From Adlercreutzia sp. ZJ141 (GTDB lineage: Bacteria; Actinomycetota; Coriobacteriia; Coriobacteriales; Eggerthellaceae), in contig NZ_JAAKEB010000018.1 of assembly GCF_011038965.1 (NCBI RefSeq), positions 1 to 41,170 of the forward strand: 41,170 nucleotides of DNA, written 5' to 3'. Positions 35,010-41,170 of this stretch are shown piece after piece (the first letter of the stretch is position 1; each line of letters begins with the position of its first letter). The position numbers and the translations under genes are program-made. Below the pieces are notes generated by a model. It was not told where the DNA came from, did no database searches, and saw only the letters and a list, made by a program, of their open reading frames with translations.

Positions 35010-35223
35010 TTTTTGTTTCCCCCGTGCTGATGCGACGGCGGAATTGTACGTTCGCTGTGAAGGCTTGGGGCACCCTACCTTGCTGCTCTAAGTTTTCATC
35101 GCGTACGACGTACGCTTCATCAAGCTTTCACGGCAATTCGGGGCACCCTTGCCCTTCTCGCTGACGTATGCGTTTGACCCATAACATTGTATGAACCATT
35201 TGCACCATGAGATAAGGATTCAC
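35010..35223 (+). promoter_or_regulatory. Leader of lysS with palindrome and short direct repeats
   Basis: The 214-base gap between greA and lysS contains an inverted repeat, GCGTACG-A-CGTACGC (35101-35115), and two copies of GGGGCACCCT (35067-35076 and 35140-35149). No T-box signature or terminator is visible. The palindrome could be an operator; this is not established. Confidence 0.35.
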
Positions 35224-36741
35224 ATGACCGAGAACAACAAGACAGAGGTTATTGAGGACGACCCGATTGCGGTGCGCCGCGCCAAGCGCGAAGCGCTCAT
35301 AGCTGCTGGTCAAAACCCTTACGGCCATGCTTTCAGCTACACGCACCACCTCGCTGACCTAACTGAGTTGTATGTCAACCTTGAAGACGGTCAGAGTACC
35401 GAGGATGAAGTGGTGGTGGCTGGTCGCATCATTGCCAAGCGCGATCAGGGTAAAATCATCTTCATGAATCTGCGCGACTCATCGGGCGACATGCAGCTGT
35501 TCTGTCGCGTTAATGCGCTGGGTGATGAAGCGTTCGCGGACATGAAAGACCTTGACATGGGCGACTGGATCGGCGTTGCGGGCACCATGATGCGCACGCG
35601 ACGCGGTCAGCTTTCCATTGCGGTTGAGCGCTATGAACTGCTGAGTAAGTCGCTGCGTCCGCTGCCTGAGAAGTTTCACGGGTTAGCCGACAAAGAACTC
35701 CGTTATCGTCAGCGCTATGTGGATCTGATCATCAACCCCGAGGTGCGAGAAACTTTCGAGAAGCGCTTCAAGGTGGTTTCGGCCATTCGCCGTTACATGG
35801 AAGACCAGGGCTTTTACGAGGTTGAGACGCCGTTTCTTCATCCCATTCTGGGTGGTGCGAACGCGAAGCCCTTCGTTACACATTTCAATGCGCTTGATCG
35901 CGACTACTTTCTACGTATTGCCACCGAGCTGCCGCTGAAGCGCCTGTTGGTGGGTGGGTTCGAGAAGGTGTTCGAAATCGGCCGTCAGTTCCGAAATGAG
36001 GGCATGGACCCCTTCCATAACCCTGAGTTTACTACGATGGAGGCTTACCAGGCGTTCTCCGACCTCGATGGCATGATGGAACTCACCCAAGGTTACATTC
36101 AGGCGGCCGCCATGGCAGCCTGCGGTACGCTGCAGATTACCTATCAAGGACGAGATATCGACTTGTCGGGCAAGTGGCGTCGAGCAACTATGATCGAGCT
36201 GGCAAGCGAAGGTGCAACAGACACGGTTGACTTCAGCCGTTCGCGTGACGAGTTGGTGGCTATTCTCGAACGCAACGGTGGGCACGCAGACAGCGCGTGG
36301 GGTAAGGGTAAGCTTATCGCTGAGATCTTCGAAGCGGTTGCCGAAGATAAGTTGGTGCAGCCGACGTTTGTGGTCGACCACCCGCTTGAAGTGAGTCCGC
36401 TCGCGAAGAAGAAGCCGGGTGCACCTGAGCTTACCGATCGCTTTGAGCTGTTTATCTGTGGGCATGAGTATGCCAACGCCTTCACTGAGCTGAATGATCC
36501 GGTCGATCAGGCCGAACGCTTCCGTGCACAGGTTGAGGCGAAGGATATGGGCGACGATGAAGCCATGGGCTACGATGAAGACTACATTCGTGCGCTCGAA
36601 TATGGCATGCCTCCTGCGGGTGGTGTGGGTGTAGGCATTGATCGCTTGGTCATGTTGCTCTCCGATGCACCGAGTATTCGCGATGTGTTGCTGTTCCCGC
36701 ATATGCGCGATGAAGCTCCTGCGGGTGTCAAGCTGCACTAA
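35224..36741 (+). CDS. lysS: Lysine--tRNA ligase (class II)
   Basis: A 505-residue class II lysyl-tRNA synthetase. The N-terminal OB-fold anticodon-binding domain (VVVAGRIIAKRDQGKIIF onward) precedes the catalytic core with motif 1 (VVSAIRRYMEDQGFYEVETP), motif 2 (FEIGRQFRNEGMDPFHNPEF) and motif 3 (GVGIDRLVMLLSDAPSIRDV). Length and motifs are complete. The ATG at 35224 follows AAGGA by about 6 bases; an ATG at 35191 further upstream lacks a good site. A terminator follows the stop. Confidence 0.97.
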   Translation: MTENNKTEVIEDDPIAVRRAKREALIAAGQNPYGHAFSYTHHLADLTELYVNLEDGQSTEDEVVVAGRIIAKRDQGKIIFMNLRDSSGDMQLFCRVNALGDEAFADMKDLDMGDWIGVAGTMMRTRRGQLSIAVERYELLSKSLRPLPEKFHGLADKELRYRQRYVDLIINPEVRETFEKRFKVVSAIRRYMEDQGFYEVETPFLHPILGGANAKPFVTHFNALDRDYFLRIATELPLKRLLVGGFEKVFEIGRQFRNEGMDPFHNPEFTTMEAYQAFSDLDGMMELTQGYIQAAAMAACGTLQITYQGRDIDLSGKWRRATMIELASEGATDTVDFSRSRDELVAILERNGGHADSAWGKGKLIAEIFEAVAEDKLVQPTFVVDHPLEVSPLAKKKPGAPELTDRFELFICGHEYANAFTELNDPVDQAERFRAQVEAKDMGDDEAMGYDEDYIRALEYGMPPAGGVGVGIDRLVMLLSDAPSIRDVLLFPHMRDEAPAGVKLH

Positions 36742-36804: not shown

Positions 36805-36984
36805 GCGGGGTGTGTTGACAATGGATTGAGGATTTAACTCGCTTAGGATTCTTAACGACAATATTACCTTGGGTCAACATTGTAGAGGTCAAGGCGCATG
36901 GTATCATCGAGTTCAATCACAATGCCATTGGGGCTTTGTGTATGGGAAACAGGGATACTGGTATGCGGGGAGGAGTGTGGTCGT

Positions 36985-37536
36985 ATGAGTCCGAAAGCTC
37001 ATAAGAAGGAGAAATCGGCACCACGTCATGATTGGGGTATGGTCTTTGGCGGAGTGATGGTATTCATCGCAGGGTTTGTGCTTATGCTTTGGCCAGGGTT
37101 GACGCTGGTTTCTATTGCCACGGCGGCGGGACTTTTGCTTCTTGCTGTGGGTATTTACGATGTGATTGCGTATTTTCGTACACGTAAGAGCGCAGGTGTA
37201 TCGGGCTGGGTGATGGTCAATGCGGTGTGTGATATTATCTTAGGCCTCCTTTTCGTCACCCATCCTCTGATTACCGCCGAGGTCATACCCATGTTTATGG
37301 GAGTGTTCGTGTGTGTTTACGGTGTCTTCGCCATCGTGGCGGCGATTCGGTTGCGTAAGGTGGGCTTCGGCTGGGGGTTCATGCTGGCCAATGGTATTGT
37401 CGCTCTACTGTGTGGGCTGTCGTTTATACTGGTGCCGGAGTCGTTCGTGATTTTCCTTGGGCTGTTCTTGGCCATGCGCGGTGTAACCATGGCGGTGTTT
37501 GGCTTCATGGAGCCGCGCGCGGTGCCTTTCATTTAA
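36985..37536 (+). CDS. HdeD-family (DUF308) membrane protein
   Basis: A 183-residue protein with six predicted membrane helices in pairs and a basic N-terminus (MSPKAHKKEKSAPRHD), the layout of the HdeD/DUF308 family, some members of which take part in acid resistance in enterobacteria. Helices include VFGGVMVFIAGFVLMLWPG and FGWGFMLANGIVALLCG, with LWPG and LVPE turns typical of the family. The ATG at 36985 follows GGGGAGGAG by about 9 bases; the open frame continues to 36898 without a comparable site. Function here is unknown. Confidence 0.82.
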   Translation: MSPKAHKKEKSAPRHDWGMVFGGVMVFIAGFVLMLWPGLTLVSIATAAGLLLLAVGIYDVIAYFRTRKSAGVSGWVMVNAVCDIILGLLFVTHPLITAEVIPMFMGVFVCVYGVFAIVAAIRLRKVGFGWGFMLANGIVALLCGLSFILVPESFVIFLGLFLAMRGVTMAVFGFMEPRAVPFI

Positions 37537-37584: not shown

Positions 37585-38811
37585 CTAATACTTGCTATCG
37601 GGTTCGTCGGTGTGGTTGTGCTGATCGCTGGGCGGATTTGTGCCGACCATGCGATAGGTGATCGACGCGAGGAGCGGCATGAGAAACACCGTCACGGCTC
37701 CTGCTGCCACCAGTACGCCGGCCGTGCTCTGCGTCATGACCTCGGCATTAACTGCAACCGAGGTGACAGCGACGATGAGGGGCAGAGCGGTGGTGCAGTA
37801 CAGTGCCACCGTCGCGCGGTTGTGCTGCGACATGTCGCGCGTGTCCTTTCCCGTTGAAAGGGCTATGTATACGGGCAGGCAGCGGATGATTAACAACGAG
37901 ACAATAAATGAAACCAGCAAAACCGGCCGTTGCGCCACCGACGTCAGGTCGATCTTCGCCCCAGATACCACGAAGAACAACGGGATTAGGAAGCCGTACG
38001 CAATGCCGTCGAGCTTCGTTTCTAGGTTGTGATTTCCTTCAGGGATTACGTAGCGCAAGATAAAGCCCGCTGCGAAGGATCCCAGTACAATGTCGAGGTC
38101 GAACAGTGCTGAGAAAGCTACAAGCATCATCAGCATCAGTACAGTAAGGCGCATCATTGTTTGTGATGTGGTGTCAGCTCGTTCGGTAAGGAAGTGGTAC
38201 AGCCTTGTGCCCGCGCGTTTCGATCGTGTGGGCACGATGGCCACGATCAAGCACAGTATGGCGAAGATCAGCAGGATGACGATCGTCTTCCATCCAGCGC
38301 GCGTCGACAGCAGTAACGCCATGGCGAGCACCGGACCGAGCTCGCCCCAGGTTCCGTATGCCAGCACCGATTCTCCCAATCGAGTTCCCATAAGTCCGCG
38401 TTCTTTTAAAATAGGCAACAGCGTTCCGAGCGCCGTGGTGGTGAGCGCAACGGTGAGTGCCACTACTTCCAGGTCGCTGGGGAATTCAAAGGCAAGGCTT
38501 AGTATCACGTAAGCTACAACAAAAGAGATTGCCCAGGTAGCGAGTCCGCGCTTGCCTTGGGAACCCATGAGGCTCTTCGGGTTTATTTCATAACCTGCCA
38601 ACAGGAACAGAAATGCGAGGCCCAATTCGGACAGCAATGACACAGAATCGGTGAGCCAGATGACGTTTGCACCGTGTGGTCCCAGTAAGGCTCCGGCGAG
38701 CAGCAGCATTACCGTTTCGGGAACGAGCTTTCGAGGTATCACGTTCGCCACGATGGGGCAGAGGGCCGATACAAGCGCGATAATGGTAAGCGAAATGAGG
38801 TCGGCAGTCAT
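37585..38811 (-). CDS. Cation:proton antiporter, CPA2 family
   Basis: A 408-residue membrane protein with about 12 helices and the Na+/H+ exchanger fold of the CPA2 (KefB/GerN-like) family. Recognisable parts are LLLAGALLGPHGANVIW near the N-terminus, ELGLAFLFLLAGYEINP, ALTTTALGTLLPILKERG and the late FLIPLFFVVSGAKIDL. It has no cytoplasmic RCK/TrkA domain and ends in a short hydrophilic tail with several His and Asp. It should exchange K+ or Na+ for protons. GGAG lies about 8 bases before the ATG. It is downstream of, but separated by a terminator from, the NhaC-type gene. Confidence 0.9.
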   Translation of the reverse strand: MTADLISLTIIALVSALCPIVANVIPRKLVPETVMLLLAGALLGPHGANVIWLTDSVSLLSELGLAFLFLLAGYEINPKSLMGSQGKRGLATWAISFVVAYVILSLAFEFPSDLEVVALTVALTTTALGTLLPILKERGLMGTRLGESVLAYGTWGELGPVLAMALLLSTRAGWKTIVILLIFAILCLIVAIVPTRSKRAGTRLYHFLTERADTTSQTMMRLTVLMLMMLVAFSALFDLDIVLGSFAAGFILRYVIPEGNHNLETKLDGIAYGFLIPLFFVVSGAKIDLTSVAQRPVLLVSFIVSLLIIRCLPVYIALSTGKDTRDMSQHNRATVALYCTTALPLIVAVTSVAVNAEVMTQSTAGVLVAAGAVTVFLMPLLASITYRMVGTNPPSDQHNHTDEPDSKY

Positions 38812-38923: not shown

Positions 38924-38969
38924 AGAAAAAGAGGAAGGCGCGATCGAACTCGTATTCGGTCGCGCCTTC
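38924..38969 (-). terminator. Terminator of the NhaC-type transporter gene
   Basis: GAAGGCGCGATCGAA (38934-38948) pairs with TTCGGTCGCGCCTTC (38955-38969), 15 bp with one wobble position, and reads into a T5 run on the minus strand (complement of the A5 run in 38924-38931). It lies about 70 bases beyond the transporter stop. Confidence 0.88.
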
Positions 38970-39040: not shown

Positions 39041-40585
39041 TTACGCCTTTGCGGTGCTTGCGTCGGTATCGTCCAGCTTGATGTCCTTTACGCTCACACC
39101 AACGAACTTCTTCATCACTACGAGCGTGCCCAGTGTGAGAACCACACCCAATGGCAGGCAGATAAAGGCATTCTGTACGAAACCGGCAATGACGAACATC
39201 ACAAACGACACTACCGCCATGGTGATGACGTAGGGTAACTGCGTTGAAACGTGATCAACATGCAGCATGTTTGCGCCCGCCGATGCCATGACCGTGGTGT
39301 CAGAAATAGGCGAGCAGTGGTCGCCTGCAACTGCGCCAGCCAGGCAAGCGGAGATGCCGATGATGAGCAGCGTGGGATCGCTTGCAAAGATGGGCATGAC
39401 GATAGGAATCAGGATACCGAAGGTTCCCCAGCTCGTGCCCGTGGAGAAGCCAAGGAACACGGCGACCAGGAAGATCACGGCGGGTAGCAGGTTGAACAGG
39501 CCCGGAGCCGCGCCTTCCATGAGTCCGGCCACGAACACGTCGGCACCCAGAAGGCCTGTCATGTTCTTCAGAGACACGGCAAAGGTAAGCACCAAGATGG
39601 CGGGCACCATGGCATTGAAGCCCGAGACGAACGACTCAGATGACTCGCGCAGCGTGAGCAGGCGGCGTGCCAGGAAGTACAGGAAGGTGAACACGACAGC
39701 AATGAGCGAACCCCACGGAAGTGCCACGAAGGCGTCGGTGTTACCGAAGGCTCCGATCACATCACCCGCAGCGTCGCCGCCGAAGAAGCCGCCTACATAC
39801 AGCATACCGCCGACGCAGCAGATAATGAGTACGAGGATGGGTACGAGCATGTCCCACAGGCTTGCCTTGCTGTTCTCGACGGCCGGCTCATCATCAAGTG
39901 CGCCCAGGTTACCATTCTTGTACGCTTCAAGTTCGGCCTTCGCCATAGGGCCGTAGTCGAAGTTCAGGAAGATAAGCCCGACAACAAATACGATCATCAG
40001 CAACGAGTAGAAGTTGAAGGGGATGGCGTTAATGAACAGCTCGATGCCGTTTACGTTCAGGTCGGATGCCACGCCAGAGACAGCGGCGGCCCACGATGAC
40101 ACCGGAGCAATCATGCAGATGGGAGCAGCAGTGGCATCGATGATAAAGGCCAGCTTTGCGCGTGAAACATTCTTAGAGTCTGTGAGCGGGCGCATGACCG
40201 AACCAACGGTGAGGCAGTTGAAGTAGTCGTCCACGAAGATGAGCACGCCCAGTACGAACGAGGCGAACTGCGTTCCCACACGCGAGGTTACGTGCGCGGC
40301 GGCCCACTTGCCGAACGCTGCGGCGCCGCCCGCTTTGTTTACAAGGGCGACCATCATGCCAAGCATCACCAGGAAGATGAAGATGCCGGCGTTGTCGGCG
40401 ACGGCGGGTATCATGCCGTCGTTGATGATGGCATCAAGGGTGGCAACTGGATTGAATCCGGCTACTAACAGCGCGCCCATGAGAATGCCGACGAACAGCG
40501 ACACGTACACTTCTTTGGTTGCCAAGGCCAAAACGATGGCAACCAGCGCCGGAACCAATGCCCAGGCAGTGTTGACGAATTCCAC
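39041..40585 (-). CDS. NhaC-superfamily transporter, probable lysine transporter (LysW type)
   Basis: A 514-residue protein with about 12 membrane helices of the Na+/H+ antiporter NhaC superfamily (PF03553). Typical segments are FVDDYFNCLTVGSVMRPLTD, DATAAPICMIAPVSSWAAA and GFSTGTSWGTFGILIPIVMP. A lysine riboswitch directly upstream indicates that the substrate is lysine or a related amino acid, as predicted for LysW. The GTG start at 40585 is 6 bases after AAAGGA; the ATGs at 40666 and 40651 lie in or at the edge of the riboswitch aptamer and are rejected. The protein ends with a hydrophilic tail (KKFVGVSVKDIKLDDTD). Import and export cannot be told apart from sequence. Confidence 0.88.
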   Translation of the reverse strand: MEFVNTAWALVPALVAIVLALATKEVYVSLFVGILMGALLVAGFNPVATLDAIINDGMIPAVADNAGIFIFLVMLGMMVALVNKAGGAAAFGKWAAAHVTSRVGTQFASFVLGVLIFVDDYFNCLTVGSVMRPLTDSKNVSRAKLAFIIDATAAPICMIAPVSSWAAAVSGVASDLNVNGIELFINAIPFNFYSLLMIVFVVGLIFLNFDYGPMAKAELEAYKNGNLGALDDEPAVENSKASLWDMLVPILVLIICCVGGMLYVGGFFGGDAAGDVIGAFGNTDAFVALPWGSLIAVVFTFLYFLARRLLTLRESSESFVSGFNAMVPAILVLTFAVSLKNMTGLLGADVFVAGLMEGAAPGLFNLLPAVIFLVAVFLGFSTGTSWGTFGILIPIVMPIFASDPTLLIIGISACLAGAVAGDHCSPISDTTVMASAGANMLHVDHVSTQLPYVITMAVVSFVMFVIAGFVQNAFICLPLGVVLTLGTLVVMKKFVGVSVKDIKLDDTDASTAKA

Positions 40586-40651
40586 GTCAATTCCTTTCCG
40601 CGGCGAGCCTGGACATGGCAGGGCGCGGTTGGAAAAACGGCGCGCAGCCAT

Positions 40652-40815
40652 GGCAGCTCTCCGCATTTCGCGACAGTGCGCAGCATGTTCTGCTGCGCCC
40701 CAGGATTCGGTTGGCTCGGGGGCCTTTTGTCCGATCCTTCGGCGATGCTCCCTTTCGCCCCCGCGCCACCCGAGCGCTCAAGGTGGGGGTTACTGATGGA
40801 CACCGCGCCTCTACC
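40652..40815 (-). promoter_or_regulatory. Lysine riboswitch (L box)
   Basis: Read on the minus strand, 40815 to 40652 contains the conserved L-box elements in order: GGTAG + AGAGGCGCG (5' P1 and core), CAGTAAC, GGGAGCATCGCCGAAGG (with preceding GAAA), the CCTGG...ACTGTC segment, and GGAGAGCTGCC at the 3' end. GGTAG (40815-40811) pairs with CTGCC (40656-40652) as P1. The order and wording agree closely with the B. subtilis lysC leader. After the aptamer, a T5 run (40633-40637) follows GC-rich sequence; GCTGCGC (40648-40642) can alternatively pair with an aptamer segment (40698-40692), a possible terminator switch. Expected effect: lysine lowers expression of the transporter. Confidence 0.9.
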
Positions 40816-41170
40816 ATGATTACAACGGACATATGGTAGCAGATTATTCGGCGGATGTGTATGGTTTGGTGGATAGGTACGGCGTTTTGACCGGTTGCAC
40901 GGTGTGTACAGTGCATATCCGGCCATTTGGTGCGTTTCCGCTTGACGTTGCCGAATTGTAATGCCGTTGCTGCATTCTCTTTCAAAGGATATGACCAACC
41001 TGTCGCCGTGCAAAACAAGCGAAGTGGTACGATATGCGCGATGTGCCCGTCTTTAGGATTTGACACCAGAATTCTTTAGGATTTTCGACATACGCTTATC
41101 TGTAAAAACCAGCCAATGAGCTGGTCTTTTTGTATATTCTGTGGAGGATTGACAAAATACTTCAAAAGGG
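40816..41170. other. Intergenic right end of the window
   Basis: About 355 bases with no convincing gene. The promoter of the riboswitch-controlled transporter must lie in the left part. A 12-base direct repeat TCTTTAGGATTT (41050-41061 and 41073-41084, period 23) and a terminator (41104-41132) are present, and a TTGACA box at 41149-41154 may be the -35 of a gene beyond the window. Confidence 0.5.
41104..41132. terminator. Bidirectional terminator
   Basis: ACCAGC (41108-41113) and GCTGGT (41120-41125) form a stem flanked by an A5 run on the left and a T5 run on the right, so it can work in either direction. No gene on the plus strand precedes it, so it probably ends a minus-strand gene to the right, or attenuates a plus-strand leader. 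Confidence 0.75.

Follow-up and report, generated by a model that had tools for sequence, protein, structure and literature searches.

A lysine riboswitch ahead of a LysW-like NhaC-family transporter gene in Adlercreutzia sp. ZJ141 points to lysine-repressed lysine uptake

We analysed a 41,170-nucleotide stretch of DNA from Adlercreutzia sp. ZJ141, a gut-type actinobacterium (the stretch is called the window below), which is one entire contig of a 2.29-Mb, 57-contig genome. Covariance-model and alignment evidence identifies a genuine L-box lysine aptamer, presumably able to bind lysine, ahead of a gene for a LysW-like member of the NhaC transporter family. The locus is probably a lysine-repressed lysine importer unit. 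The pairing of an L-box with an NhaC-family gene is already known in kind and has been predicted in other bacteria; new here are a covarying anti-P1 element, the Eggerthellaceae cases and a probable change of expression platform. The default label for genes like these is Na+/H+ antiporter. For the Eggerthellaceae and for related Clostridia alike, the riboswitch, together with its conservation and the OFF design seen in relatives, points to lysine uptake instead, which is useful for annotation.

Results

The L-box aptamer and the start of the transporter gene

Searching with cmscan identified the lysine riboswitch family RF00168 at 40821-40646 on the reverse strand (-), with 82.4 bits (E = 3.2e-20) against a gathering score of 30 bits and the full model (1-182) covered. 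A sequence-only reading had placed an L-box here and named lysine as the controlling ligand; the Rfam check confirmed the aptamer and supports the ligand through its class. The span given in that reading, 39041-40815, covers the gene and cuts 6 bases off the 5' end of the aptamer (40646-40821). P1 is formed by the 5' strand TCATGGTAG (40811-40819, -) and the 3' strand CTGCCATGG (40648-40656, -), for which a downstream element is an alternative partner; 6 of 6 core pairs and 3 further pairs are present. The P2 loop GCTCGGG (40769-40775, -) and the P3 loop CCCGAGC (40714-40720, -) match over 7 bp as the two halves of the P2-P3 kissing loop.

For comparison, 34 Eggerthellaceae leaders were compiled from 53 L-box loci (window included), after removal of 7 duplicates and of 12 loci without an NhaC match, among them L021 and L027, whose genes look like lysA. 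The kissing-loop motifs were located in 30 of the 34 and not in the other 4. Across these 30 leaders the loops pair better with their own partner (mean 5.8 bp) than with those of other leaders (4.5 bp, p < 5e-5), and pairing reaches at least 5 bp in 28. On these features the aptamer looks intact. It is the single L-box found in the genome; lysA and dapB therefore have none, since both lie on other contigs. As these two pathway genes, the two searched, are present, lysine auxotrophy is not supported as a reason for uptake.

The transporter gene (39041-40585, -) starts with GTG and encodes 514 amino acids. It has the same orientation as the aptamer, from which the GTG is 60 nt away, and is preceded by a Shine-Dalgarno-like AAGGAA (40591-40596, -) that is aligned in relatives. 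The start region of 20 aligned leaders is free of gaps, with TGGA invariant and the first base G or A, and 14 of the 34 leaders carry an in-frame stop within the 27 codons before the start, the window leader having none. A longer open reading frame from ATG 40666 begins inside the aptamer and was rejected. The start-region alignment and the in-frame stops thus favour the GTG at 40585, the start already proposed from the sequence. On the 3' side of the gene, a hairpin at 38969-38934 followed by CTCTTTTT (38926-38969 in all, -) is a likely intrinsic terminator; it folds at -23.5 kcal/mol and was spotted by eye, being absent from the list of the terminator scan. A promoter scan found no sigma-70-like promoter.

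An alternative partner for P1

Between the aptamer and the gene lies GCCATG (40614-40619, -), which is complementary to CATGGC at 40652-40647 and can pair with it only when P1 is open. This putative anti-P1 element was identified through covariation in the 34 leaders. The score used compares the pairing of a segment with its own leader and with those of others, relatedness being handled solely through the choice of representatives. Scored in this way, the P1 3' strand covaries with its own leader in all 34 Eggerthellaceae leaders taken together (p < 5e-5) and in 19 representatives (p = 0.00055), as compared with p values of 0.35-0.83 for control segments of the aptamer. A plain case is a pair of sequence neighbours, L032 and L118, with CATGGCTGA opposite TCAGCCATG and CATGATCGAA opposite TTCGATCATG. 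The same signal was observed in 36 leaders from outside the Eggerthellaceae (p < 5e-5; control 0.30), the ORF starts of which, like those used below for N-terminal extensions, were chosen by script and in some cases look wrong (e.g. L034, L042). The P1 5' strand shows no covariation among the Eggerthellaceae leaders (p = 0.42; representatives 0.57). It does covary in the non-Eggerthellaceae (clostridial) set (p < 5e-5), a point against the mechanism preferred below. When each leader was instead shuffled, the mean z was -1.32 for the P1 3' strand, -0.66 for the P1 5' strand and -0.24 for the control; 9 of the 34 leaders reached p <= 0.05, and the window itself was not significant (p = 0.184).

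Intrinsic terminators are frequent in the relatives outside the family, where a strict script found one in 27 of the 36 leaders and several of the remainder show one by eye. A near-identical script found six among the 34 Eggerthellaceae leaders, three of which contain the anti-P1 element, and L006 adds one more by eye. Since a P1 closed by lysine excludes the helix between the P1 3' strand and the leader, and the arm so freed would form the terminator in Clostridia, the logic would be that of an OFF switch. OFF is the best and natural reading of these alignments, and we infer that the same sign would apply in this species.

Control in the window leader

No intrinsic terminator was found by the scan between the aptamer and the gene in the window. 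The leader has a weak 5-bp hairpin (40651-40637, -4.7 kcal/mol) followed by five T (40637-40633; 40633-40651 in all, -), which overlaps the P1 3' strand. Were this a terminator, P1 would break the hairpin and lysine would therefore act as an ON signal. We rank this low because the hairpin is weak and TTTT lies as early as this in just 2 of the 34 leaders. Two-state folding left the Shine-Dalgarno sequence equally unpaired in both states in the window (0.67) and gave no general shift in its accessibility across the 34 leaders (3 up, 1 down). Control in the window is probably translational, at the GTG, a step to which the accessibility calculation lends no support.

The preferred mechanism is then as follows. 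When lysine is scarce, P1 would open, CATGGC (40652-40647) would pair with GCCATG (40619-40614) and the mRNA would be expressed; when lysine is bound, P1 would close, the alternative helix would be lost and expression would drop. The OFF step would be carried out by the terminator in clostridial relatives and probably at the GTG translation start in the window leader. The product would be an NhaC-family protein of LysW type, most likely importing lysine by coupling to Na+ or H+; the cell carries lysA and dapB as well.

Family and fold of the transporter

The protein matches PF03553 with 164.4 bits (Pfam cut-off 23) and is the one match to this family in the genome. The more specific NCBIfam models scored far below their cut-offs: 36.4 against 370 bits for the NhaC Na+/H+ antiporter equivalog (TIGR00931), 160 against 750 for Tet(35) (NF000013) and 29.6 against 650 for the ArcD arginine/ornithine antiporter (NF052307). 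All three models also match 50 of 50 aligned members. Residues H423, H442, Q449 and Y452 are among those common to LysW-like proteins and absent elsewhere in PF03553 (46 versus 13 rows). D119, D120, Y121 and W165 are likewise invariant in the LysW-like rows, 11 of the 13 other rows being gapped at these positions.

The AlphaFold2 model has a mean pLDDT of 89.8. Its top fold matches are an integrative model of MleN and structures of DASS/INDY and Pho90, with TRAP and ArsB structures lower, a fold that we take to be that of elevator-type carriers. MleN has a malate/lactate role, and the predicted fold leaves the substrate of the window protein unnamed. The MleN model (PDB 9a59) is the best structural match (Z = 23.8 over 412 residues, rmsd 3.8). 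A search of solved structures by sequence returned no match up to E = 1. The antiporters MjNhaP1 and SLC9C1 come far down in the Foldseek results (ranks 44-49, TM 0.12-0.14) and are not among the 50 VIA-align rows listed, neither of which excludes anything.

N-terminal extensions of at least 28 amino acids were observed in 53 of 80 relatives (script-chosen starts), and many resemble signal peptides or anchors by eye. CxxC motifs occur in the extensions of 21 of the 80, several of them DnaJ-like CxxCxGxG (loci L047, L048, L054, L056, L060-L062, L064, L066, L067, L069, L070, L072, L074, L082, L092, L096, L097, L099, L101 and L104).

Distribution of the L-box and transporter pairing

The transporter's nearest relative among the matches listed is a protein of an Eggerthellaceae MAG, at 91% identity. 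A same-strand upstream L-box was found for 44 of the best 80 homologues (17, 6, 10 and 11 per 20); 36 have none, including 4 whose available upstream DNA is shorter than 300 nt. Mapped onto a tree of 81 rows, the L-box label changes at least 16 times, which is below all 500 shuffles (mean 26.8), so that by this sequence tree the label is clustered, yet with frequent gains or losses. Rows from the Eggerthellaceae sit amid clostridial L-box rows, adjoining a MAG named Actinomyces.

Within the class (Coriobacteriia) an L-box is present in 169 of 396 genomes. Of 30 such loci that were fetched, 20 have this transporter; nine of the other ten precede lysA, dapA (some with dapB) or an amino-acid-binding ABC gene by eye, and the remaining one was too short. 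The two top-scoring L-boxes of the class (L003, L004) precede amino-acid-binding ABC components by eye, a probable lysine uptake system. An orthologue of the transporter scoring above 580 bits occurs in 59 of 138 Eggerthellaceae genomes. Of the 44 Eggerthellaceae orthologues compared, 35 have an L-box (33 within 290 nt upstream and 2 more on closer inspection), and for the other 9 none was found even at E = 0.05. A second NhaC-family group, approximately 42-50% identical to the window protein and usually matching in two pieces, is common in Eggerthellaceae (genera g6, g8, g11 and others).

The L-box also discriminates within PF03553: in a mainly clostridial sample it was present at 12 of 21 LysW-like loci versus none of 13 other loci (Fisher p = 0.0006). 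Of the 36 loci in the sample, the class to which Blautia hansenii belongs contributed 29, and the other 7 came from genomes in which a locus was already known. L157 and L189 were excluded because their ORF was wrong or weak, and the RNA scan covered all but L154, L155, L161 and L162. Among the 12 L-box loci, L153 and L156 were already in the homologue list and the L181 protein is identical to that of L093; two of the 13 others (L158, L160) come from Eggerthella sinensis. The tree of this sample gave long-branch warnings.

Genomic neighbourhood

The lysyl-tRNA synthetase gene lysS (35191-36741, +) lies 2.3 kb from the transporter. We rejected it as a sign of a lysine-themed neighbourhood, given that none of the loci of 80 relatives (up to 3 kb downstream covered) has a lysS match, the window itself matching. 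Just downstream of the transporter gene is an ORF resembling CPA2 cation:proton antiporters (37585-38811, -; 109.9 against a cut-off of 238.3 bits), and a further ORF (36898-37536, +) weakly matches the HdeD acid-resistance family (34.3 against 189 bits).

Discussion

Lysine uptake is favoured, not proven, because relatives have an OFF architecture, the L-box is confined to LysW-like members in the sample, the lysine decarboxylase family PF01276 was not found in the genome and the NhaC equivalog score is low; an OFF switch also fits an importer. The sequence-only reading had assigned lysine transport outright on the strength of the riboswitch. Its placement of the protein among the LysW-like NhaC proteins is supported, and the assignment itself was too strong, as a riboswitch shows control and not cargo. 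One rival is that the protein truly exchanges Na+ (or another cation) for H+ in the control of pH, lysine being only a signal because its decarboxylation competes for that role. The Pfam and COG names speak for this proposal, which is repeated in PMC11477304 and PMC5584792. The two neighbouring ORFs, CPA2-like and HdeD-like, would suit it, both scoring under their cut-offs, but no CPA2 match was found at the loci of 80 relatives (up to 3 kb downstream covered). The proposal is weakened because it rests partly on lysine decarboxylase, and PF01276, the sole decarboxylase family searched, gave no match; the equivalog score and the restriction of the L-box within PF03553 speak against it as well. 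We consider it unlikely.

The fold leaves the choice of substrate free, and the ArcD model is weakly matched by all members scanned, so another lysine-linked solute (ornithine, arginine, cadaverine or a compound of the diaminopimelate pathway), possibly exchanged with lysine, can be envisaged. Regulation follows lysine, however, and the ArcD score is a small fraction of its cut-off, which makes such a cargo improbable. Export of lysine, switched on by lysine, we regard as slightly more improbable still. The direction of transport could be either, the sign of the switch is deduced, and the five-T hairpin of the window would be disrupted by P1 in just the manner that an ON switch needs; against this stand the weakness and rarity of that hairpin, and the P1 3' strand alternative with terminators in most of the relatives outside the family, which follow OFF logic.

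With lysine import by the window protein retained as the probable function, a wider proposal is about evenly balanced between right and wrong: that LysW-like NhaC proteins are a broad family of lysine importers turned off by lysine, and that the Eggerthellaceae L-box has moved from termination, as in clostridial relatives, to translation, with the same covarying anti-P1 element retained.

Comparison with known systems

LysW, an L-box-linked gene of the NhaC superfamily, was reportedly predicted by Rodionov in 2003, and the arrangement in the window is alike in that an NhaC-superfamily transporter gene has an L-box directly upstream. Unlike LysW systems, the window leader has no terminator that the scan recognised. 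The lysW L-boxes described in passages of PMC5584792, under COG1757, belong to Firmicutes, Gammaproteobacteria and Betaproteobacteria, whereas the window gene is from the Eggerthellaceae (Actinomycetota). According to a 2024 review (PMC11477304), the function of L-box-linked NhaC proteins is unknown, and they could alternatively be Na+/H+ antiporters that regulate pH; the C. difficile gene CD1655, NhaC-like, preceded by an L-box and of unproven function, resembles the window gene by its description there. The OFF switches of B. subtilis and E. coli, also covered in that review, belong to the same aptamer class and control lysine biosynthesis, whereas the window's controls a transporter. Tyr T-boxes on NhaC members, described in PMC2494555, are consistent with an amino-acid role in some parts of this family. 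MleN (PDB 9a59), the best structural match to the transporter, is yet only 11% identical to it.
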